This document shows positions 12,192-32,500 of a DNA stretch of 64,000 nt, in pieces. The DNA comes from Diplosphaera chodatii. Lineage: Eukaryota; Chlorophyta; Trebouxiophyceae; Prasiolales; Stichococcaceae. The DNA is taken from assembly GCA_032358165.1 (NCBI GenBank), contig JAALGY010000032.1, forward strand, positions 620,001 through 684,000, written 5' to 3'. Numbering within the stretch: the stretch's first letter is position 1; each line of letters starts with the position of its first letter. The notes below the pieces were generated by a model that saw only the letters and a list, made by a program, of their open reading frames with translations, was not told the origin of the DNA and did not search any database. Made by a program: the position numbers and the translations under genes.

Positions 12192-15100
12192 ATGACCGCG
12201 GTAGCAAGCAGCTCCACAGCGGGCTACGAGCGGCCATGCAGGCCACGACTGGCAGCCGCAGCTCCTCTGCACAGCGTGCGGCCAGAGTCAGCGCGCTGCC
12301 GGGGCAGGGCAGCCGATGCCGCACCACAGCTCGCAGCGGTGCTGCTGCTGCTGATCCTCGCCGCCGCCTCGGTGCCGGCGGCTTCAGCGGTGACGCTGCC
12401 CACCGACAAGCTGGCCCTCCTGGCATTCAAGGCGGGCATCACCTCGGTGCGCCGAAGTCTGTTGCGGACGCTGTACGGGGCAGAATTGCTCGTGGCAGCC
12501 GGCGGCAGGGCGTGCCACACAGCCAGCAGCATCCGCCGTGTTTGCGCATCGTGCCTGCTTGCAACCAGCGCCGTCATGCGCACTCGCAGGATCAGGGGCT
12601 CCTGGAGACCTGGACCAATGACACGGACCCCTGCGTCCAGCCGTGGCGGGGCGTGAACTGCAGCTGCACCGCCTCCAGTCCCTTCGTCGCGTGCCGGGAG
12701 CCGTCGGGCAACCAGGCACAGCGTGTGTTGCAGGTGAGCAGATGCACAGGCAACGAGATGTTTCGCCTGTAGACCCCTCTCATGGGCTGCGGCTCCCTCC
12801 TTGAACATGGTCAGTTGCCGCGGAGGAGCAGCAGCGTAGGGGTGGCTTGGGCCAACCTGCGGCTGAGACTGCTGATCCACCATGGCAGCGGAGCTGCTAT
12901 TCCGCACACGCGGCGTGAACTGATGTTGTCATTGCAGCTGGACTTCGGGCTGCCTCCATCGCCAGATGCGCCGCAGCTGACCGGCCAGATATCTGCGGAG
13001 CTGGCGGGGCTGACTGCCCTGCGGCGCTGGGCGCTGCCGCGCATGAACCTGCTGGTCAGTCAGCAGCGCAGCTGATCAACGTGCTGGAGGATGTTGCTTG
13101 CCTGCATGATGGGTCGCATGGTAACACCATGAGCGGCGCACGTTGCACTGCTGATGTGTGCTGTCAAGCCTCTGGGCCGGAGTGGATCGCGAGCCATATG
13201 TGAGAGTGGACTGACGTGCTGCAGGGCCAGCTGCGGGAAGATCTCGTTGCGATGGACAACCTGGAGCAGGTGGAGCTGCAGAGCAACCAGCTGTCCGGGT
13301 CGCTGCCAGCCTGGGGAGGCAACCTCACCAATGGGCAGGTGGGGAGCGGCCCCCCGGCATGAACACCGTCTCGCTTGTGCCAGCTCAAAGCCGGGCCGGT
13401 ATTAGTGCAGTGAGCGTCTACAGGAGCATGAATGTCACGCTGTGACTCGAGAATTGACATCCGAACTTGCTATCTGTCCGTGTGCTGCAGATCATGCGCC
13501 TTGACAGCAACCTGTTCACTGGGTCCATCCCAGCTTCGTGGTGTCCCACGATGCCCCCTGTGCCGACCTACCCTGTCGCATTGGCAGGGAATGCAGGTAC
13601 ATCCCCAGAGTCGAACTCTTGTTTCCACGGCAACGAGTGCATGCTGGGTGCCAGTGCTGCTGAGGGTCCTGCCAGATGCTGGGTGACGAACCAGTGCCCA
13701 TCGGCGCTGCCTGCTGGCAAACATGTCATACACGGAGTGCCGCAGAAACTGACAACTGTTCATGTTGACGCAGGGCTGTGTGACACGGTGCCAGCCTGCA
13801 TGGAGTCGCGGCTGCCGTCGACATCCGGCACCAGCCTCATCTCTGCGGGCAACAGCTTTGGGTCCACCGGCGAACTGTGCAACGCGACCTCCACGCCGCT
13901 GTGCAACGCCGCGACGGGCTGCGGGTAGGGTTTCTGGCAGCCTACAATCAATGCTGCTTGCTGTAATAAGCTTCAGACACCCAAGGAGCTTGTGCCTGCA
14001 TGATGCGCTGCTTCAGCGCTTGAGGTGCGTGATTTGCACTGTGTGCACCGCTGGTGATGTCAGGTGTTTGGCTGTGCATGCTGCCAGATGAGCCTTCACA
14101 TCGACCCCAGGCGCGGTGTCGATGCTGCAAACAGCTGACACTAGCTTGCCTGCACCTCAACACCCCATGGCAAAGGGAACATGCCGTGCCCTACCGGCAC
14201 AGCCTTTCGTACTGCATCAGCCGCTGGTCATGGCCCCTGCAGGATCATCATCTCGCAGTGGAACACGATAGTGGACACCATCAGCTTCAGCTTCACGCCC
14301 TTTGCGCCCGGCAACGCCAGCGCGCGCGCCCCCAACGGCGGCGTCACCTACTTCTGGGGCCTGGGCACCATCAAGGGCCAGGACAACGTGCTGACGCTCA
14401 ACGTACGGTCCACCCTCCTGACTGCCTGCCATGAGGAAGTCTTCTGACCCATGTCTCAGCAGCTGTGTACGTAGATGCTCTGCCACAGACTCTCTCTGAA
14501 GCAGTGCATGGTTGGTCTGCACAGCAGATGAGAACACCCTATTGCGGCACATTTGCGTCCGGCTCACAGGCTGGTCCTGCGATGCTGATGTTCCTGTTGC
14601 GCGGATGCAGCCAGTGGACACCAACAGGAACTACACGGGCAACGTGACCACGCCCAGCAATGCGACCGTGAGGCGGCTGCTGTATGGCGTGGCACAGACG
14701 CTGTCGGGTGTCGCATTCATCAATGGCCAGGTGCGACTTGCGTGGCATGATGCCCATAACATCATCGGCCATGTTTCCCCCCTGCTGGCTACAGACTGGT
14801 GCCCAACTTGTTTGCATAGTCACAGCTCAATACAGCGCCTGACAGCATCGTGACTATTCACTTCCGAAGCAGCTGTGGCGCTCATCGGAATGGTGCTTGA
14901 CACCTGCTGCTGGACGTTGCAGACTTACTACCCTGTCATCACAGCCTCAAGCCAGTTTGACCCATCTCTAGTCGCCAACCTGACGGGCCCCAACACCACG
15001 GTATGCATCTCTCCCACATTTGCCAAGCATATGCCAATTGCTGCTGTGCGACCACGGCACAATGACACACCACTCAAGTCACTGATGCTTATGACGCACG

Positions 15101-18100
15101 GCTGTAAACGCTGCAGACGGATACGGACCCTCCCATCCTGCCGCCAGGCTCCACAATCGACAACACTGCGGACTACACCATCGTACAAACGCAAGAATCA
15201 ACGACAGAGATGGGGTGCGTGAGAGATCTTTTCGCACCAGTCATCAAGAGCCTGGCAGCTTTCATCCAGCTGTGCCACGGTGCAAACTAGACCTGGTGCA
15301 TGTGGCACCACAGCAACAGCCTCAGATGACATGGTTGGATCAGATTCTTACCAACGCCCGTGCCTGCCGGTGTGCGCAGCGTGTCATGGGACGACTGGGT
15401 GGACAAGCAGAGCGGCATCGCCGGCTACGCGTACCAGATCGTGGGGGTCAGCGACCTACAGGGCAGGGGGAAGGCCACTGTCTTCACAAACGCCAGCGCG
15501 ATGGTGCGCCTTGTGCTTATCGGCAGCAAGCGCAGCTGAAGTGCACACGGGGCTGCGGCGTGTCTGTTGGTATAAAGTGTCGACACATCTACTGCATCAC
15601 TGAGGCTCCTTGCATGTGGACGCAGGCATGTCCTTGTCCTTCCTGGCATGATGCGGACCCTCGTGTGCTTGTTGGCAGGTGGATGTGGGCCTCAACACAT
15701 CGGCGGTGGCGACCGGGCTGACGCTTGAGCCGGGCAAGCGCTATGCTGTTCGCTGCACAGCCACCAACAATGCTGGGCTTTCGGGCTTTGCCGACTCGCC
15801 TGCCCTGGTACACAGCTGCTGCCTGCATCTGCATACACGATTCCTGTTGACACCAGCCATGATTTTGCGCAATGTTTCACCCCGGAAATTTTCAACAATC
15901 CGAGCCAGACGTCTGCAATCCCCATTCTTTGTACCTCACCTGACGCTGCAGTTGATCGACAACGGCGGAGGAGTGTCGACCTCAAGCGCAGCAATCATTG
16001 CGGCCGCGTGCATTGGCATCTGCTCCATTATCGTGGCGCTGATCACCGTCTACGTCGTGCGATCCAGGTGAGCTGCACACCTGTGTTCTCAGCTGGCCCC
16101 CTGATTACTGTCGCTGGTGGAGCTCACTGCCGTATTTCCTCACCTGCAGTGCCGGTCAGCATCAGCTGAAACATCTAACCCTGACACGGTCAGGTACAAC
16201 GCCCGGCGCAACTCGCGGCGGGAGCAGCGGCGGCAGATGAAGGAGTTCAAGGCGCTGATGTACGGGCTGGTGTCCACGGGCGGCGACCCGCTGCAGAAGC
16301 GCATGGACCAGATCCGCAACAGCCGCCAGCTGTGCTTTGTGATGACGGACCTGGAGGCGTCCACGGCGCAGGCGGCCGCCGACCCGGACGCCTTCCTGCA
16401 GGTCCAGGACATCCACGATACGGTGCGCACCCCGCCGGGGAGCGGCCGCCTGGGCCACACAGGGTGCTGGGCACGGGGTGCGAGCCTGACGGCTTTCTGC
16501 GGGTCTGGGCCCTTGACTTGGCGGTCCAGAAAGCAGGGTTCTGCAATGGCAGCATGGGACTGTCATTGCTAGCAACAGTCGGCAGAAGCCAAACAAGTGG
16601 CAGTAATGCGCCACGTAACTTCTCTCGGGGGCCAGTAACATTCTTGATCTGCAGGTGATGCGGGAGGGCATCGCCAAGCACGGCGGCTACGAGATCAACA
16701 CAGAGGGCGACGCCTTCCACGTCGCCTTCACTACGGTGCACCAGGTAGCCGAGCACTTTTTTGTGCAAGTGGCCGAGAGCAGCAGAGACCAGCAAATCGG
16801 TATTGGCGTCAAAGCAGCACGGGTTGGCCGCATGTCGCTGTGCTGCGCGCCTCACATTGCACGGTGCAGCGAATGAGAGATGCACAGCGAGTCTGCAGTC
16901 GGGGCTGCTGGCTACCGGAGGCTTGAAAAGCAGACCGGTGAGCTGCAGCAGCACCTCACATGCACCCTCACACCGCGAGCGCTGCGCCGCGCAGGCGGTG
17001 CTGTTCTGCCTGGAGACGCAGTACCGGCTGCTGGAGAGCGCCTGGCCGGCCGAGGTGCTGAAGCTGCCCAGCTGCAAGGAGGCCACCGCGGCGGACGGGT
17101 CGGTGCTGTTCCGCGGCCCCCGCGTGCGCATGGGCATCCACTGGGCCGGCGAGGGCACCGTCGCGCACAGGTGATCACCATATCAGAATCTTCATCAGGA
17201 CTCTATGGATTGTTCCATATTCGAAACGTATCAATCTGTGTAACGTTGGAAGCTCACAGCACCGGACGTTAGACTTACCATCCAAGAAGGTTCACAGGGT
17301 TGCGGCCGGTTTCATGGCGCTGCTATGCTGAATACCCTATGCCTCTGCTCGTGCACTTGGGTCTAGCTGCCTGCTGCCACCTGCTTCTAATGCTGCAAGT
17401 TGTGACCGCATGCAGGCTGCACCTGCTGACGAAGCACCGGGTGTTCTCGGGGCCGGGGTTCGCGGTGGCGCAGGAGATCGGGGACGCGGCGCACGGCGGC
17501 CAGGTGGCCATCAGCCACGACGCCTGGCTGGAGCTGCGCAACAACATGGACCAGGTGCCGGCCGCTGGTTGACCTGCCTCAGGCTGCGGCACACACTCTC
17601 GCTGCAGCCTCATGCTGCTCGGAGAGCCAGCATTGCAGCATGCTCCTGTCGTTGCGAGGAATTGCAAGAGGCCAAGCCTCTTTAGACACTTGCCTGGCGT
17701 CAGGACTGACAGAGGGGTGGCATTCATGCTGCAGGCGGGGTTCCCAACGGTGGAGCAGCTGGGCCTGTTCAAGCTCACCTCCTGGCCCAGCCCCGTCTGG
17801 CTGTACCAGGTGACCAACATGACCACATGCAGCAAACATGTATATATACATATCAGGACCAAATCATGTCAATCATCAGATATCCAAGTTAGCAATAAGG
17901 CCGCCAGTGCATCAAGCTGTTTGCCTGTACGTGTGCAGGTGACGCACCTGCTGGGCAAGCCGCTGCTGCGGGTGTTCGACCAGATGCGGCGCATCCTGCA
18001 GGTGGAGCCCGGCTGGGGCCTCAACATCGTGCCGCCCCCCATCCCCCGCTCGCCCCAGGTGCGGCTGACAAAGCTGAAAAGCACCTCACCTCCTGTCTGT

Positions 18101-21100
18101 GCTGGGCTTGTGCAGTGAAGTGCCAGTGCCGTGACTGCCCTGCTTGCTGCTCAATGCTGCTTGCTCAGTGCTGCGACATATGGTGAGAAGAGTGCTTAGG
18201 AGGAGGAGCTGCAACTACAGCTGCATCTGAGCTCTGCAAGCACGTCCGCGCTGCAGGGCCCGCTGACATTTGTGGCGGTGCGCGCGGCGCTGGACGAGCT
18301 GGGCCTGGAGTCGGCGGCGGGCACGCCGCCGCTGGAGCTGCCGCCCAGCATCAGCCGCAAGCTGTACGAGATCATTGCCATCACCGCGATGCAGTTCCGC
18401 GGCTACATCTTCAAAGTCAACGAGCCGCAGGTGACTCCCGCTGCACCTTCTGCAGCAAGCCTTGTACCTTGTACCGCAAACCTTGATGCCTTTCCATCAA
18501 GCAGAGCAGGAGTGTCCGCCCTGCCTTCTGGCCTGCTGTGCAGCATAGGATGCGTACGATGCTGTGAACCTTCGTGCTCTCGTCCAGTTGAGCATGAGGG
18601 ATATTGAAATCTGTGCGCTCACATCATGCTGCAGGGCCGCTTCATGCTGGCGTTTGCGAGCACGCTGGACGCGGTGCGGTGCTGCCACGCGGTGCAGGCG
18701 CACGTGCTGTTCACCAGCTGGCCGCCCGAGGCCATCGTGTTCAGCGGCGCCACGGAGCACATGCCCGACGGCCGCCTCGTGTTTCGGGGCCCCCGCCTCG
18801 CCACCGCCATCCACGAGACCTCGGAATATGGGTGCGCCCCCTGATCAACATGGCCTGAACGCTTCATGCCTGTTTGCATGCCTTTGGTATTGCTATGACC
18901 AGATTGCGAGATACGTAGTGTTGTTTTCTCGATATCTGATTGATTGTCTCAACAAAGGAGTTATGTCCCTCGGTCATATACTTCCAGGGCTGGAGAGGGC
19001 TTGGGTCATCTGCTGCTGGAGGTCTGGCAGCAGGGTTCCAGCCTGCGCACAGCCTGCTGACTCTGACAGTGGAACAGTGATGAAAAGGAGTGCCTGCCCC
19101 TACAGGGTGGCGGAGGTGGCGCCCGCGGAGCTGGACGGCAAGGCGCAGCACCTGCCGGTGGAGTACTCGGGCCCCGGGGAGACGTTTGTGCGGCACATCG
19201 CCAACGCCACGTACGGCGGGCAGGTGGTGCTGACAGAGCCCGCGTGGACGACGGTGCAGGACCACATCCCTGGCCAGGCGCAGGCATGCTTTTGTTCTAC
19301 ATATGCATTAAATACCCACCAGCTGAGAAGTGCTGTCTTGCTCTGACCTGCGCACGCTCTGTCGGCTTGGTACCACATGGCCTGCTCTGTCCGGCTTGGC
19401 ACTTGGTACACTGGCAGCAATTGCAGCGAGCTGTGCATTGGAGGGCAGTGTACGTGATGTGCTGCGTTCTGTACAGGTCATCTCGCTGGGCATCCACGTC
19501 ATCGAGGTCGGCCCCGAGGCGTACCGTATGCTGCTGATGGAGGTGCGCACAACCTTTGCTGGTCCATCCTGATCAATTGTTCAACCATGCAGCGCAGCTC
19601 GCAGACTGAAATGCTGCTACACATGACTGTGCTGGTGTCAACATGTGCACTTCCTCAAAACTCGCACTCCTGCCCTGGCGGCAGGTGATGCCCAGCGTGC
19701 TGGCGAGGCGCACCTTCCCGCCGCCCCGCACCGCCGCGCAGCTGGAGCCCGGCTTCCGGGACGCCCCCGACCCCGCCCACCACCTCGCCATCCTGTTCAT
19801 GAAGGTGACCCCTGGCTCAAAGTGCAACAGGTGTTGACGTCAGTTCAGCAGTAACCTGCAAGAAGACTGGACAGTGTTGCAGTGCTGCCCACGCCACTGA
19901 GTATGAGATCCGCCCTGCTGCCTAGCTCCCACTCAGTACTCTGCTTTTTAATAAATAAATAAAATCAATCATATACTGAGGTTGTGTTGAAACAACTTCC
20001 AGGCCAGCAAGCCGGAGGAGGTGACGGCGGCGGAGCAGGCGGCGGGCTCGGTGGCGGACGAGCTGGTCATCTCCACCATCACGGAGTACAACCTGGCGGT
20101 GGCGATGGTGAGCCGGGCGGTGCGGCAGCTGCTGCCCGCCTACGATGGCTACGAGTGCAAGGAGCCCGAGGCCGCCAAGTTCACGCTGGCCTTCAGGTGC
20201 GCATTGGCGCAGCTGCCATGGTGGAGCGGCGTCGCTGCCGCTGCCGTTGCAATGTGCGCTGGGTCTCATCAGGCAGCAGAGTGGACTCGGTTGGTCATTC
20301 CCGGTCCTCTCGTACAAGAGAATGGCTCTTCAAATACATTTTGAAGGTGGAATAACCTATGTATGTAGTTGAAAATTTTAAATTACTACTTAAAAAATCC
20401 TTCTTGGCTGCGGTGCAGGAGCCTGGAGGCGGGGCTGCGCTGGGCGGCGGCGATGCAGCAGGAGCTGCTGCAGCTGCCGTGGCCGGAGGCGGTGCTGCAG
20501 TGGGGCGCGTGCTGCGAGGGGCGCGACCCGGGGGGCCGCCTCGTGTGGCGGGGCCTGCGCGTGCGCATGGGCATCGCCTGGGGCGGCGCCACCTACCGCA
20601 AGCCCCTTAACACAGGCGCGCCCTGCCCCCTTGCTACCGAGCGTGCGACCCACTGCCGTCTGCAGTCATATGTGCTGCTCTTCCAGAGCGGGGTGACGTA
20701 AGACCTGCCGCTGCTCTGTATTGCCTTCGACTACAAAAACCCGGTGGCAAAGATGCAAGCACCGGTGGCAGCCTCAAGCACCCAGGCACAAACAGCTCTG
20801 TGATGCCGCCAGTGCTGCAGTCCCTCTGTGAAGTAGCATTACGAACACCAGCCATTTTCGCTATGTCTTCGTCCGTTTTAAAACCAAACCGTCTTGGCCG
20901 CAGGCCGCGCGGACTACTTCGGGAACCTGCCCAACCTGGCGGCGCGGGTGTCGGCGCTGGCGGCGCCCGGGCAGGTGCTGGTGGAGGGCACCGGCCTGGG
21001 CCTGGACGACACCGCTTTCACCATGCGCGAGGACAGCGCCGTGCTGCTGCCGCCGCTGGAAGGTGCAGTTTGCAATGGTCGCCGTGAAGCGACCTTGGCT

Positions 21101-24100
21101 GGCTGAGCATTCAGGGGTTGTGGCCCTGCCACCCACGCACCAGCGCTTTGCAGTGCGGCTGGAGCACGCGCTAGCAGCGAGTGCACAAACAACACCATGG
21201 CGCGTATTTGAGCTCCAGACGCACTCCACTGGGCAGAGCGTATGGTTGGCAGGGAGTGACTGCTCAACCTAGGTACCTCACTGACGCAAGGCAACCTTTC
21301 GTGCGCTCCGGTTCGATGGTGGTCACGTCCGTCAACCAGACTGGAAGGCGGCATCTGCTGTGCTTTCAGGCGGCCCGGCAGCAGAGGACAGCGGCCTCAA
21401 CTCGCTGCGGGGCATGTTCAGCGAGACGCGGCCGCCGCTGCGGGACCTGAGCGACTACGGCAACGACGCGGACGACCGGGGCGACTCCCGCTACTCCTCC
21501 CCGGTCTACCTCAAGTGCCTGGGCCAGTTCATGCTGAAGGTGGCGCCCCTGTCTGCTGTCCTCGTGATGCGCGTTTCATTGTTCCGTTGAGGGTTCTGTA
21601 GAACTGGAGAGTTGCCGTGTGCACTGCTGAGCTGTATGCTGGCCTGACAGCGCAGACTCTGTTCATGGAGCTGCTGGCTGCTGCAGGGGCTGAGCGAGCC
21701 CAAGATCATATGGCAGGCGCTGCCGACGCGGCTGGCGGCGCACCGCTCCTTCGACCTGCCGCCCGAGCACATGGCGCAGCGGGTGCCCTCCGCCACCGTC
21801 CGCCGCACCACCCGCTCCGGCGCGGTGCGCCCTGCCAAGAATGCTGCCGCCTCTTGCATCTCAGCTGCTGCTGGCCGCCCGGACCTGCAGGTTTGGCAAT
21901 GGTTCTCGGCCCAGCGTTCTCCTATCACGATGAGACATGCCCCTGTTGAAACCCATTCTTTGCGCTGTTAAGGTGGTTCCCCTGCCCACCAAGCTCAGCT
22001 TCAACAGCTCCGACTCGTCGGTTGGGGTGGTGCGGGGGCTGTCCGGCGTGCCCAGGTGCGCCTGCAGCCGTGCTGCAAGTCTATCCTCCTCCGGGCTGGA
22101 CTTGCCAGTCAGCCCGGGGGATGTGACCCTGGCCGGCTGCAGTTTGCCAGTTCGGTCCTTCTCTTGGCTCTACTGCATACATGTGCTCATAAGTCTGCAC
22201 TTTTTGATCACAACTGTACCTGTCTTATCCTCAGCGCTCAATTGATGCAGCAGGTTCATCGGGTGCAGGAGGTACTGCTGAAGCCGTCACGGTGAAGTGA
22301 GGATGAGCTCCTGCCTTTGGCTGCAGGAGCGTGCTGGAGCTGGTGGGCCTCAAGCCCAAGCGGAGCAGCGGCACCGTCAACGGCTGCGACTCGGACAGCC
22401 CCGGCATCTGGGTCGCCGGCCGCTCCACCAGCGTCACCAGCCGCCAGGACAGGTGCTGTCCCGCGCTTGGGGCCAAACCCTTATCCAAGCGCTGCGCTAG
22501 ATGACTGATAGCAGTCTGAACGCTGCTCTCCTTTACATGTTTATGCATCTGGCATATGCCCAGCTGGGCCAGGCCCCCTTTGTATGTACGTGTACCATAC
22601 AAATGCAGCTGGCGCTGCGCACGTGGTGAGCCTGCTCAGGATGCTGACTCGCCGTGTGCTTTCTGTGCTCCCAGCAACCCCAGCGGGAGGGAGGGTCGCT
22701 GCGCTAACGGGCAGGCCAGCCGCTCCTGCAGCCTGGGGCGCCACCAGTCGCCCAGCACCTCGGGCACCCCGCCCCTGGAGCGCAGGTCGGGCCCCGACAC
22801 TGGTCCACAAACACCCCTCAAGTTAGGGAGAAACCAGCAAAGCGTCCAGCACGTGCGCGCTGTGCAGGCAACACAGCTCTGGCTGCTTGCTCGCACCTGC
22901 CAGCAGCCTGTGCCAGTGCATGGCGTCTGCACAGCACTGCGTCTGCGTGCTTCACGAATATGCCTGCTGCTGCAGCTTGACGGCCGGCACCGTGGAGCGC
23001 ACGCCGTCGTACTCGGACGAGCACCCGCCGCCGGCCCGCTCGACGTCGCGCAGGTCCCGCACCTCCTACACCGATGGCGGAGGTGTGCCCTGCTCTTGCC
23101 GGCAAGCAGCGTGGCAACCATCACAGCTGGAATCAATGCAGTCATTGCCATGTGATCATGTTACAGTCCACTGGCACCTTGCATCTCCTCGTCGGTGAGT
23201 CTCATTGTTTGGTGACAAACGACGACTGATGCAAGCCTGAGCAGCAGCTGGCACATATTGCTACAGGGCTGGCGCAGGAGACGCCGCGGCGAAGCGCTTT
23301 AACCGTCGGCTTTGCACGCCGCAGCAGCCAGCAGAGCAGCTCCAGGTGGGGCCCAACACCAGCTGCATGTGTTGCTGCCGACAGACATCCATTTTAACGG
23401 TGAAAGGAATGGAGTGAGTGCAGGATCTGATGTGCATTTCATAGAAGAAACCCTGCCGCATGCCCTCACATGCAATGCACGGCTGCAATGCTGATGGGGG
23501 GCACATGCGCCTGTGCAGGTCCGGCCACGGCCACCGGCTGGACAACCCCTTCGCGGTGGCGATCGCGGCGGTGCAGCGCAGCTCGCACTCCGCCAGCAGC
23601 ACGCCGCCGCTGGGCAGCAGCCCGTCGGGCGGCGGCGCGTGGGACCCGCAGCCGTCCGGAGGGTGCGCCTGAAGCTGCAGTCCGCCTGCGTGCCTTACCT
23701 TGACAGTCACAGGTCATGTATGCCGACTGATGGCTTGGCTTGGTGACTTGAGCTGACGAGATAGCCAGGCCACCTGTTGCTGCCATGCAGCAGGATGCAC
23801 ATATGTGTGCCAGCTGACGTAGGGCACTCGAGGGCCTACCGCATCTGACAGCTGGCGCACTTGACCTGACAGCTGTGCACAGCACCAGCGAGCGTCAAAG
23901 GCCTGCACCCTGAGATGGTGCAACTATGCTGTCGACACGAGCATGCACAGCAGGGATATCTGGGAGTGTAACAGGAAACAGCGTTCCAAAACATTGCTCC
24001 TGTTCCTCCGTCTGACATTCGATGCTGTCATCACCGCAGCTCTGCGGACCAGCTGCCGCGGGTGGAGAGCAGCGGGGCGGGCAGCGGCGCGGGGAGCACG

Positions 24101-25359
24101 CTGGACGATCTGGCGCCGCCGCCGCCGCCGCCGCCGCCCACAGCGGACGCCCCCGACGACTACGGCAGCAGCGGCAGCATGCCCCTGTTCGTGCGCGGCG
24201 GCGGCGGCGAGACCGTCATGAGCCGCTCGCACACCGAGCCGCCGGAGGCGCTATCAGGGCAGCTGCCGCCGGCGCCCAGCGGCAACAGCGGGGCGTCAGC
24301 GCTGAGCCAGGTACGGTCGCCCTTCGCCCGGGGCAGCGGCTCCGAGCGTGCCGTCCAGATGTACTCGCAGCCTGGGCGGCAGCAGGGCCTGCCGAGCGGC
24401 GGCAGTGAAACTGCTGGTGGCAGCGGCGGCGGCAGAGGTGGCGGCACCCGGTGAGCATGTCTGCGTTGTCCTGACACCATGTTGCACCACGCAGACTGCC
24501 CTATTTCTTTTGCCAGATCCCTGCTGTGATGTAGAGCTCAGCATCTCAGTCCTGTACACAGGCATGTGGGCTTCGACACCGCGCCCTCAGCGCCCGCAGC
24601 AAGCAGCGGCCAGGCCCAGGCGGCGGCGGCGCAGGCGCGGCCGCAGTTCAGGTGGGACAGCGACGCGGCGCGGTTCGGCACCGCGTCCATGGGCTACGCG
24701 CGGGAGGTGGCGGAGCTGTTCCTCGCCCGCAACCCCGCCCGCGCATCGCTCGACCAGGTGCACATTGCTATCAGGGGTCTCTGCGCCTGCAAGCCTTTGG
24801 GAGGTTGGCCGGCCGTAGGGTGCAGAAGCAGCTGCCGCAGCAGGTCTGCCTGTTCCGTGTGTTCGAAACCGTACTTATACGGGTGGGCGTCACAACACTG
24901 CCTTGACAAGTCGAGATGCGTGGTCAGAGTCCAGAAAACTCCATGTGCAGGGGGCCAGCAGGCTGGGCGGCGGCGCATCTGACGGCAGCTCTGCGGCCGC
25001 CGGGCGCAGCAGCGCCTCCCCGCAGCAGTGAGCCAAGCTCAGGGGACATAGCACACAGTCACTCGTCGTATCAAAGCGTGCATGCAAACGGCCTGGGCCA
25101 TTTGGTGAGCCGGTTGTGATGCTTGCGGATGGTGTAAAGAAGTGGCGACCGCCTGCCCTACAGGAGCCAGGCCAGCCAGTGCGACCTGGATGCAGCCGAG
25201 GCTGACGCCATTGCAGAGGCCGCCGCTGCGCGTTTTGCTGCACAGCGGAATAGCGGCGCCGGAGGGCGGCGCACAGGCGACGGCAGCGCCGACGGTGGCG
25301 CCAGGCCGCCGGATCCACTGCGGCGAGCCTCCGGCAGCTCCGAAGGGTCCGTCGGCTGA
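12192..25359 (+). CDS. receptor-like class III nucleotide cyclase: LRR, FN3-like, TM, three cyclase homology domains
   Basis: I chained 39 exons with consistent phase from ATG 12192 to TGA 25357-25359, giving 1887 residues. Order: hydrophobic signal or anchor (about 45-68); LRR N-cap with WTNDTDPC..WRGVNC (about 86-133); LRRs such as QSNQLSGSLPAW (exons 12938-13596); a Cys-rich LRR cap; an unassigned region; an FN3-like part ending NNAGLSGFADSPAL (exons 15380-15807); one TM helix (exon 15952-16067). Then come three cyclase homology domains: CHD1 about 617-815 (exons 16194-17809), CHD2 about 848-1074 (18257-19542), CHD3 about 1083-1378 (19685-21824). The last 500 residues are low-complexity Ser/Gly/Pro, with a poly-Pro run near 24120. 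CHD1 keeps metal Asp624 and Asp666; CHD3 keeps Asp1226, Asn1233 and Arg1237. Known role of the family: NTP to cyclic NMP. Adenylate specificity and a plasma-membrane location are inferred. Two introns use GC donors. Confidence 0.85.
15952..16067 (+). other. transmembrane exon of the receptor cyclase
   Basis: This exon encodes IDNGGGVSTSSAA followed by about 22 hydrophobic residues (IIAAACIGICSIIVALITVYVV) and then RSR plus a long run of basic residues in the next exon. It separates ectodomain from cyclase region and fixes type I topology, with the cyclase domains inside. Confidence 0.8.
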
Positions 25360-26112
25360 GGGTTGCGGGCCCCAAAGCACGGTCAGCAGGATGTGTTTTC
25401 GCTTCGGTAATCAGTCTACCAATGGGCAGGTTTCGGGTCATACGCAAGCTGGCTGTACAATGGAACGACTGCGCCCGGTCGCCCTGCGTATCAGGCCCAT
25501 CGCCCGACTCTGTGGACCCTTCAGGGAAGATGATCACAGGCTAATCTGCAAGCTTCCGACGGGGTGCTGTAATTAGTCGGGGTGCTGTAATTAGTGATCA
25601 GGCACGGCCGTCTGCAGGCAATTGAACACCTTTGCTGCGCTGGACCAGGATCAGCATGATCAGCAGCTGGGCAACTGGGCTGGAGGTTAGCATTTTCAGC
25701 ACTTGGCCAGGTGTCGAAGTGCCAACCCGCCACGGCTTTAGCCACATGTACGGCTGTACTGTACACAAAATGCCAGCTTGTGTTTCTGTTTGATGGCATG
25801 GTTTGCTCAGGTAGGGTGGTAAACTGCAGTGTCGAACGATGTACGTGAGCTGTTGAGAGACCCTGCTGTTGTGAGAGCAGGACTGAGACGTCTCCCACTT
25901 CCTGCCTCCAGCCAGCTGTTTGAGTTGTCACCCAGCCCACGTGGCAACTCGGATCTCAAGCTGGCTGACCGCTGTCGAGCAACAGCGCAGCTCACACACT
26001 CGACCGCACACGCACGCGGCATCACCCACACTTCACACACATCGGATCTGACAGGTTTTGTTCCGGCAAGGCGCCTCAGACACTGTCGCGCTTCGTCAAC
26101 AGCACAGCAACC
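25360..26112. other. intergenic region between cyclase and secreted-protein gene
   Basis: Holds the cyclase 3' flank and the promoter and 5' leader of the next gene. An 18-bp tandem duplication (GGGGTGCTGTAATTAGT + C/G) lies at 25561-25596. No convincing exon is seen on either strand. Confidence 0.5.
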
Positions 26113-29530: not shown

Positions 29531-32500
29531 ATGCGCCGCACAGGAGTCTCGGTGTCGCTGCTACTGGCTGCGGCTGCGCTCATCGCGCTCGCACCGCAGG
29601 TGGCCGTTGTTGTGTCGAGTGCTTGAAGTTTCGACCCAGCTGCAGATGGCGGGTGCAGCCTGCAAGAGGCTGTCCTGCATCACGCCAAACCCCGCCATGG
29701 ATGTCTTTTACGTTCACTTTGATATCAGAGAGCCACCGGGCTGGGGATTGCATGCTGCGGCACCATTGGCCCACCGCTCCTCTCCTCCATGCATGGTCAG
29801 AGAACATCAAACTATCAAAGTGACCAAGGACCGACAGCACTTGTGACCCGCCTGTATGCGCCGCACAGGTCGATGCAGCCCGACTCGGCAAGAGCCTCGG
29901 GACCGCGCCAGGTGCAGGCATTTCGATGCACCCATGCATGCTGGCTGACCGTACTGCAGCCCTGTACCAGTCGTGCAGTATTCACGGCCTACCCGCTTGG
30001 CATGCCAAAAGTGGGGCCACTGCGACTTACTATAGCCATAGATGGCGATGTTTGAACATGTAGGGCTCCGACAGGGCTTCGACCATGCCATTACATTGCT
30101 TGCAATAGGACGTGACTTTGCAACGACTCTGTGTGCAGGCGGTGATCTCCTGGTGGACAGCTCGAACGAAGGCATCGTCGGTCTGCAATCAGCCCTGGTG
30201 CGCCTCTTCAAAACTGATTTCAATCATACTTCCAATGACGAGGTGTCACACAACAGATGGTGTCCGCTTGCTTGGCCACTGTGGCCTGACCGTGCGCCGC
30301 TGCGGCACGGTTGTCCCGCCATGTTGCACTTTCAGGCCAGGTCATGGTTGATTCATGCTACACATATTTGCTGATGCGATGCGTGCAGCCGATGCGCGGC
30401 TTGCTGGCGGCAAAGTCTGCAAAGACCGCGAAGCGCAAAGTCATCATCATCAAGCCGGTATGGCCCTTGAACACTCATCTGCTCAAAGCGCACACAGCGT
30501 ATTGCAAGCGGTCCACCAATTGCTCTGCACTCACATTTTTGGCGCATTCATGCACGCGAGCACACATGTCACACACGGCGGCAGTGCAGTCGCCATGTGC
30601 AAGCGCATGCTGATGTCCGCTGCCTGGTTGTGACTACTGCAGGCTCCCAAGAAGGCGCCGATCAAGAAGCTCATCAAGATCATCAACAAGCTCATCAAGG
30701 TGATCACCTGTGTTCGTTTGACTACTCCTGTACCGATTGTTCACACCTCTGAATGCGACCGGCCACCACGATGTGTCCCTCGTCTGCGCTTCACAGCAGT
30801 CAGTCATGCAGATGCCTCATGCTTGCAGATCATCAACAAGCCCAGGCCGGTGCCGGTGCCGCTGCCCAAGCCGCTGCGCCCGCCCACGCCGCCCCGCGCC
30901 CCGAAGCCGGACTGCAAGCCGCCTGCCATGCCCACTGCCTCGGTATGCTTCGTATGTGCATTGCTTTTCTCTGGCATAGCAGCCTCCCTTGGTATCTGCC
31001 TTCAGCACGTTGAGGCGGTCACCCCAGATGTAGTAGAAGCGTCTTGGGGCGCTGACCGCCGACTTGGCCTGACTGCAGCCAACTGAGGCGCCCACTACCG
31101 CACCGACAGAGGAAAGCATGCCCACTGACGAACCGACGGCGGAAAGCACGCCCACATCTGCGCCGACAGAGGAAAGCATGCCCACCGACGCACCGACGGC
31201 GGAAACCACGCCCACATCTGCGCCGACAGAGGAAAGCATGCCCACCGACGCACCGACGGCGGAAACCACGCCCACATCTGCGCCGACAGAGGAAAGCATG
31301 CCCACCGACGCACCGACGGCGGAAAGCACGCCCACATCTGCGCCGACAGAGGAAAGCATGCCCACCGACGCACCGACGGCGGAAAGCACGCCCACATCTG
31401 CGCCGACAGAGGAAAGCATGCCCACCGACGCACCGACGGCGGAAAGCACGCCCACATCTGCGCCGACAGAGGAAAGCATGCCCACCGACGCACCGACGGC
31501 GGAAAGCACGCCCACGTCTGCGCCGACAGAGGAAAGCATGCCCATTGACGCACCGACGGCGGAAAGCACGCCCACGTCTGCGCCGACAGAGGAAAGCATG
31601 CCCACTGACGAATCGACGGCGGAAAGCACGCCCACGTCTGCGCCGACAGAGGAAAACATGCCCACTGACGCACCGACGGCGGAAAGCACGCCCACGTCTG
31701 CGCCGACAGAGGAAAGCATGCCCACTGACGCACCGACGGCGGAAAGCACGCCCACATCTGCGCCGACAGAAGAAAGCATGCCCACCGATGCACCGACGGC
31801 GGAAAGCACGCCCACATCTGCGCCGACAGAGGAAAGCATGCCCACTGACGCACCGACGGCGGAAAGCACGCCCACATCTGCGCCGACAGAGGAAAGCATG
31901 CCCACTGACGCACCGACGGCGGAAAGCACGCCCACGTCTGCGCCGACAGAGGAAAGCATGCCCATTGACGCACCGACGGCGGAAAGCACGCCCACGTCTG
32001 CGCCGACAGAGGAAAGCATGCCCACTGACGAACCGACGGCGGAAAGCACGCCCACGTCTGCGCCGACAGAGGAAAGCATGCCCACTGACGCACCGACGGC
32101 GGAAAGCACGCCCACAGCCGACGCGCCACCGACGGCCGAAGCCCCATTTGACCAGGGCACAGCCACCCGCATTACTGGAGGTGAGCCCGAGCAGCCTGCC
32201 ACAGCTTGCCGGGACCAGTGTTGCTGACATCACCTGCTACTGTTGTTACAGCAGGCTGCTCACAGCCTGCACAGCCATTGACTGCAGTTGCAGTCAATTG
32301 TCTTGATCTTCCAGCCTTAATGCCTATTTACGAATGCAGCCAACACATTCTTCACTGCTGCGGTGACGGACGCCCCGACAGCAGCCCCGACAGCAGCTCC
32401 AACGGCAGCGCCTACCCGCAACAGCAAGGCGGAAGCAGCCCTGGCACAGCTCCTGAAGCAGCTCGAGGTGTGCGTTGCTGAGACAACGCCCACTGTGACA

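Follow-up and report, generated by a model that had tools for sequence, protein, structure and literature searches.

How can a protein with three class III cyclase homology domains (CHDs), none of which holds the complete catalytic set, act as a nucleotidyl cyclase? This question is raised by a gene of the green alga Diplosphaera chodatii, located on the plus strand of a stretch of 64,000 nucleotides from contig JAALGY010000032.1 (hereafter the window, to which all coordinates refer unless another contig is named). Positions 16194-21824 encode the three domains, which lie C-terminal to leucine-rich repeats (LRRs) and a single transmembrane helix. Our analysis suggests that the product is probably a single-pass receptor adenylate cyclase with a composite CHD1/CHD3 active site and an empty but retained CHD2. 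We base this prediction on the six catalytic residues, which are present once over CHD1 and CHD3 as in the animal C1/C2 pair, and on the ATP-type Lys/Asp pair of CHD3; catalysis, ATP specificity, ligand control and membrane topology of the protein are inferred from sequence.

Division of the catalytic residues among the cyclase homology domains

The Pfam profile Guanylate_cyc (PF00211) matched the window protein in two stretches, best in CHD1, with 43.4 bits against a cut-off of 21.9. The domains belong to the CHD fold of class III nucleotidyl cyclases, and the CHD1 part of a relative adopts this fold. The residue register was set by the Trypanosoma brucei GRESAG4 enzymes. CHD1 (16321..17797; residues 614-803, exons 14-18), delimited by profile matches and alignment, carries both metal-binding aspartates, D623 (16348-16350) and D666 (16709-16711), together with N662 at the Lys site (16697-16699) and V745, A752 and E756 at the Asp, Asn and Arg sites. 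CHD3 (19778..21788; residues 1084-1366, exons 24-29), delimited by alignment, has K1092 at metal site 1 and is devoid of the Gly-Asp of site 2, and it keeps K1145 (20159-20161), D1226 (20912-20914), N1233 (20933-20935) and R1237 (20945-20947). CHD2 (18257..19696; residues 848-1056, exons 20-24), assigned by alignment and by its identity with a second gene copy, carries R856 at metal site 1 and K900 at the Lys site (18413-18415), and it lacks both the Asp of site 2 and the Asn/Arg pair. As judged from this alignment, all six class III active-site residues are present once, divided over CHD1 and CHD3, and they are available to one site only by combining both domains.

The same distribution was seen in a family of chlorophyte proteins. 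We aligned the window protein with 77 database proteins, two of them two-CHD proteins, and counted 76 rows including the window; the rows include fragments and close relatives and are not independent, and each count refers to the rows covering that site. In CHD1, the metal aspartates are present in 67 of 68 and 69 of 69 rows, Lys, the adenine-binding Asp and Asn each in 0 of 70, and Arg in 2 of 70. CHD3 is the counterpart, with metal aspartates in 0 of 72 and 0 of 70 rows, Lys in 67 of 70 (Gln in 3), Asp in 68 of 68, Asn in 69 of 69 and Arg in 68 of 69. In CHD2, Asp was found at metal site 1 in none of 70 rows (Arg in 34) and at each of two candidate site-2 columns in 1 of 73, and Asn (1/71) and Arg (4/72) are similarly rare; 39 of 70 rows have a basic residue at the Lys site, and 42 of 71 have Asp at the adenine site. 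On this alignment, the complementary CHD1/CHD3 pattern is not due to chance, as it holds across 75 relatives and the window with few exceptions. An earlier note on this DNA had described three CHDs with complementary catalytic residues, and all the motifs that it named were found; its first metal aspartate is residue 623 and not 624, and its other numbering agrees. Its proposal of a split into a C1-like (metal) and a C2-like (base and transition-state) domain is borne out by the conserved residue distribution in the window and its relatives, and the adenylate-type pair that it read in CHD3 is present as K1145 and D1226 and near-invariant in the family.

The window protein shares with this family the colinear order CHD1-CHD2-CHD3, and each of its domains is placed in the corresponding clade (C1, C2 or C3) of a domain tree. 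Named members are from Coccomyxa (Trebouxiophyceae), Bryopsis (Ulvophyceae), Gonium (Chlorophyceae) and an organism listed under a code that we take to be Tetraselmis (Chlorodendrophyceae), and further members are listed for Trebouxia, Micractinium, Nannochloris, Ostreobium and Tetrabaena. LRR matches were found in the three-CHD proteins of Coccomyxa elongata, Trebouxia, Micractinium, Nannochloris, Bryopsis and Ostreobium; those of the C. subellipsoidea protein stay under the cut-off, and no LRR domains are listed for the three-CHD models of Tetraselmis, Gonium and Tetrabaena. The database names of these relatives are generic ("Adenylate cyclase", "hypothetical protein").

Tandem two-CHD proteins were found in Mesostigma, dinoflagellates, diatoms and trebouxiophytes (some Trebouxia and Myrmecia proteins), with Mesostigma, including some isoforms, accounting for 61 of the best 120 of 156 rows of the two-CHD search. 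We scanned 124 of these proteins (119 of the listed rows and five found earlier), of which 117 were readable in both domains, and the same complementary split is present by a strict rule in 86 of the 117. Some two-CHD relatives carry other accessory domains (PF13407, PF05517, PF01590). In the domain tree, C1, C2 and C3 each form one clade, with Shimodaira-Hasegawa-like approximate likelihood ratio test (SH-aLRT) values of 97, 100 and 98, and in a wider tree the three clades are supported by 89, 98 and 91; C3 groups with the second CHDs of six two-CHD proteins (SH-aLRT 99.9). Because the split is common to the tandem cyclases of Mesostigma, dinoflagellates and diatoms, it is older than the three-CHD family and not peculiar to the window gene. 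The best tree joins CHD2 with CHD1 and the first CHDs of the two-CHD relatives (SH-aLRT 95), and the alternatives, C2 with C3 or C1 with the first CHDs alone, were not rejected by the approximately unbiased (AU) test (p 0.48 and 0.41, respectively); CHD2 may derive from CHD1 or from CHD3.

Some of the two-CHD search proteins are worth recording in their own right. P0243, P0231 and P0234 have four CHD matches, and the two middle CHDs of P0231 and P0234 hold all six catalytic residues, which sets these two apart from the three-CHD family. Mesostigma viride has a very large two-CHD set (P0046, and P0177 onwards), in which Glu at the Lys site and Ala at the Asp site prevail, and with PF13407, a periplasmic-binding-protein family, in 11 of the listed proteins; this set is possibly a guanylate-type receptor expansion. 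Eight full-length rows have Gly at metal site 2.

Domain pairing and substrate

In the reading that we prefer, the LRR/fibronectin-III-like outer part would sense a ligand, and the transmembrane helix together with the juxtamembrane helix would relay the signal to the three CHDs. CHD1, with its two metal aspartates, would meet CHD3, which would provide Lys and Asp for the adenine ring and Asn and Arg for the transition state, and the resulting single composite site would convert ATP to cAMP, as C1:C2 does in the adenylate cyclases of animals. The mirror site of this pair would be empty, and CHD2, which is predicted to be unable to build an active site with either partner, would be retained as a structural or allosteric domain.

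Several observations weigh against a receptor cyclase with such a composite site. The three-CHD LRR protein P0020 has Asn at CHD1 metal site 1, with its CHD3 intact, and three relatives have the Gln mentioned above at the CHD3 Lys site; P0020 is possibly an inactive or altered family member. Among the two-CHD relatives, 31 of the 117 fail the strict rule: P0062, P0231, P0234, P0244, P0262 and P0294 follow other arrangements, which in some of them include a CHD holding the full set, and in the others one or two required residues are absent or the reading is cut. Furthermore, when solved chains of sAC and AC9, with two CHDs each, were superposed on the AlphaFold model of the two-CHD relative P0219 (predicted template modeling score, pTM, 0.66), more than 500 columns were aligned with a root mean square deviation (rmsd) of 18.3-20.0 and a template modeling (TM) score by target of 0.27-0.31. 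As two-CHD chains superpose so badly despite more than 500 aligned columns, the two CHDs of the P0219 model appear to lie outside the C1:C2 arrangement, in a comparison that lacked a positive control. The model of a three-CHD relative (pTM 0.71), compared with the same kinds of chain, gave rmsd values of 18.6-24.9 and TM scores of 0.26-0.32 and no sign of canonical pairing, the aligned CHDs not being identifiable from the output. Single-CHD proteins were among the 50 structure-similarity matches listed for the two models; chains of AC9 and sAC did not appear there, to which we attach no weight as evidence.

These models bear on the question of whether the partners belong to one chain, as the earlier note had proposed; this is the least secure point of its reading. 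The same active site could be formed in trans, with CHD1 of one chain pairing with CHD3 of the other in a receptor dimer, possibly with a CHD2:CHD2 contact on the two-fold axis, and ligand-driven dimerization would then be the switch that turns the enzyme on. The sAC and AC9 chains superpose with about one domain of the P0219 model, although its pTM suggests a fixed placement of the domains, and the three-CHD model gave similar values; single-transmembrane receptor cyclases are dimeric in other families. On the other hand, a dimer cannot appear in monomer predictions, and the missing positive control limits the superpositions here as well. We regard formation of the site in trans as a serious possibility that falls somewhat short of an even chance, and pairing between two chains as about as likely as pairing within one chain. 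An extended arrangement, in which the six CHDs of the dimer form the three pairs CHD1:CHD3', CHD2:CHD2' and CHD3:CHD1', is rather unlikely; two composite sites would then flank an empty CHD2:CHD2' pair on the two-fold axis, which would act as a ligand-driven dimer clamp or as a nucleotide-sensing switch. Given the frequent basic residue at its Lys site (39/70) and Asp at its adenine site (42/71), CHD2 might bind a purine nucleotide without turnover.

For the composite site of our preferred reading, the substrate can be predicted by analogy. Lys and Asp are the ATP-specifying pair of the cyclase Ma1120 (K101, D157), and Asn-Arg is the transition-state pair of most cyclases (PMC4215837). The Lys and Asp of CHD3 are thus of the type that favours ATP, but since some remaining guanylyl cyclase activity is also reported for Ma1120 (PMC4215837), the pair is not absolute for ATP. 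A guanylate or dual cyclase is improbable: Glu or Gln predominates at the Lys site of the 86 split two-CHD relatives (Lys/Asp pair E-A in 37, Q-D in 36 and K-D in 1), and substrate preference may have shifted in the superfamily, but the three-CHD family has Lys in 67 of 70 and Asp in 68 of 68 rows, which is the ATP-specifying pair of Ma1120. It is still less probable that the protein is a pseudo-cyclase receptor, whose CHDs would serve as a signalling scaffold without cyclic nucleotide synthesis. CHD2 is empty, CHD1 and CHD3 are each half empty, and a CHD1 metal aspartate is lost in P0020, all of which would fit such a scaffold; however, all six catalytic positions are near-invariant in either CHD1 or CHD3 and never in both, which is unexpected for a dead enzyme. 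Green algae are known to use cAMP, for example in zygote formation in Chlamydomonas (PMC8115329), but no description of such a receptor was found among the literature matches listed.

The second gene copy, the empty domain and the gene model

The genome of D. chodatii (85.6 Mb) is rich in introns and contains a second copy of the gene on the minus strand of contig C27 (C27:3533099-3538976), in opposite orientation. A search of the genome with the exons, in which only the best candidates were scored, gave 33 matches at E ≤1, of which 32 fall within the two copies, the remaining one being weak (E 0.59) and on contig C18; a search of the genome with the PF00211 profile gave no match, probably because introns interrupt the domain. 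The splice dinucleotides of exons 2-33 are conserved in the C27 copy, with the exon 11 acceptor at 15380 as set by comparison of the two copies, and an artefact of the gene model was ruled out by this conservation. The C27 copy is identical at both CHD1 metal aspartates and at K1145, D1226, N1233, R1237 and K1092 of CHD3, and at the Asn site of CHD1, where the Asn had already been lost, the window has Ala and C27 has Leu.

DNA identity between the copies is 91-98% in CHD exons, 80-93% in ectodomain exons and 65-79% in 32 introns, and the synonymous divergence (dS) is 0.39 in the ectodomain versus about 0.13 in the CHDs, so that conservation of the CHD exons is unusually high and extends to synonymous sites. 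Gene conversion as the cause of this low divergence is not supported, since the introns have diverged all along the gene; codon or splice constraint may lie behind it. Amino-acid changes between the copies number 8 of 190 in CHD1, 8 of 285 in CHD3 and 0 of 209 in CHD2 (dS 0.13), and the difference between CHD2 and the pooled CHD1 and CHD3 is significant in a post hoc test (Fisher p 0.0043). As none of the 209 residues differs while the introns are diverged, CHD2 is under purifying selection and is not decaying; the degenerate CHD2 of the earlier note is thus confirmed as a domain that is catalytically empty but retained. A generally higher conservation of CHD2 than of the other CHDs holds between the two copies only: identity over 20 family members is 0.541 for CHD1, 0.434 for CHD3 and 0.413 for CHD2, which places CHD2 near CHD3 and below CHD1. 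That CHD2 is a functionless, decaying relic of a duplication is hardly credible in view of its unchanged sequence and of its family identity near that of CHD3, even if it lacks a complete catalytic set and has the longest stem among the three CHD clades (1.52 versus 0.61 and 0.52).

The whole gene model (12192..25031, with TGA at 25029-25031, from the plus-strand reading) has 38 exons and encodes 1823 residues; 35 of 37 donors are GT and 2 are GC, all 37 acceptors are AG, and 16194-21824 corresponds exactly to exons 14-29. The GC-AG introns, at 19283 in CHD2 and at 20615 in CHD3, are both kept in the second copy. Both gene ends are uncertain, because the C27 copy has GTG in place of the first ATG, and coding-like sequence may run past the stop.

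The protein is an LRR receptor by its architecture, with an LRRNT_2 cap, LRRs and one transmembrane helix. A signal-peptide-like hydrophobic segment (12336..12392; residues 49-67), seen in a hydropathy scan of the exon 1 frame, precedes the LRRNT_2 and LRR region (12399..13514; residues 70-218, exons 1-5), in which Pfam LRRNT_2 matched residues 70-110 (1.6e-11, 44.7 bits versus a cut-off of 20.7) and LRR_ComC residues 185-230 (3.1e-6, 27.5 bits versus 27). Exons 10-12 (15177..15783) may encode a fibronectin-III-like extracellular stretch: the fn3 profile did not match the window protein itself and matched four of five relatives scanned, above its cut-off in P0147 only. The transmembrane helix (15988..16067; exon 13) starts at residue 545 with a hydropathy of 2.85 over 19 residues, and it is, together with the N-terminal segment, the only segment above 1.6; the LRR part would be on the cell outside. 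The sequence between the helix and CHD1 (16194..16320) is basic and predicted to be helical, as it is a long helix in the AlphaFold2 model of the relative P0005. The long Ser/Pro/Gly-rich C-terminal tail (21973..25028; exons 30-38) is probably disordered, as suggested by its composition and by P0005, whose model has predicted local distance difference test (pLDDT) values below 50 over most of the tail.

Elsewhere in the window, a 60-bp tandem repeat at 31089-32116 has 17 copies with 96% matches and is open on both strands; its minus-strand open reading frame matches Pfam Decapeptide (6.9e-17), and the plus strand would give a Pro/Thr-rich 20-residue repeat. Downstream of the gene, at 25560-25595, there is a perfect 18-bp tandem duplication (CGGGGTGCTGTAATTAGT). 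An Rfam scan of the window and a search of plasmid records with 16194-18194 gave no match.

Comparison with known systems

In mammalian membrane adenylate cyclases, which have two CHDs and two membrane parts of six helices each, the metal aspartates sit in one of C1 and C2 and the base and transition-state residues in the other. Like AC5 and AC9, the window protein has its catalytic residues divided between CHDs of one chain, and unlike these, it combines one transmembrane helix with an LRR ectodomain and has an additional CHD that is empty, its hydropathy excluding two six-helix membrane domains. The catalytic residues are distributed over C1 and C2, neither of which is active alone (PMC9552081).

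The closest solved CHDs by sequence and fold are those of T. brucei GRESAG4.1 and GRESAG4.3 (1fx2, 1fx4). The receptor-type adenylate cyclases of T. brucei follow a single-transmembrane plan, as does the window protein, but the catalytic domain of GRESAG4 has all six residues in one CHD, whereas the window protein has no complete CHD and spreads them over two of three. The tandem two-CHD algal cyclases have the same split, and their second CHD is in a clade with CHD3; the window protein differs by the additional CHD2 in between and by Lys rather than mostly Glu or Gln. The fungal LRR adenylate cyclases P0152 and P0154 likewise combine LRRs and a class III CHD in one protein, but one CHD was found in each, and it falls outside the C1, C2 and C3 clades.

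No three-CHD or LRR-CHD algal cyclase was described by title or abstract start among the matches listed from the open literature, outside which most subscription journals lie. The parts are known; what appears to be undescribed among these matches is a protein that unites an LRR receptor of plant type with a split of animal type and with a third CHD that is empty yet conserved. The three-CHD chain spans Trebouxiophyceae, Ulvophyceae, Chlorophyceae and Tetraselmis, and the split itself is common to a streptophyte alga, dinoflagellates and diatoms. The two-CHD and three-CHD proteins thereby form a natural series in which one can follow how an empty cyclase domain arises and persists, and how changes among Lys, Glu and Gln follow substrate choice. 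In the window protein, a plant-type LRR ectodomain is fused directly to a cyclase with an animal-type division of labour.

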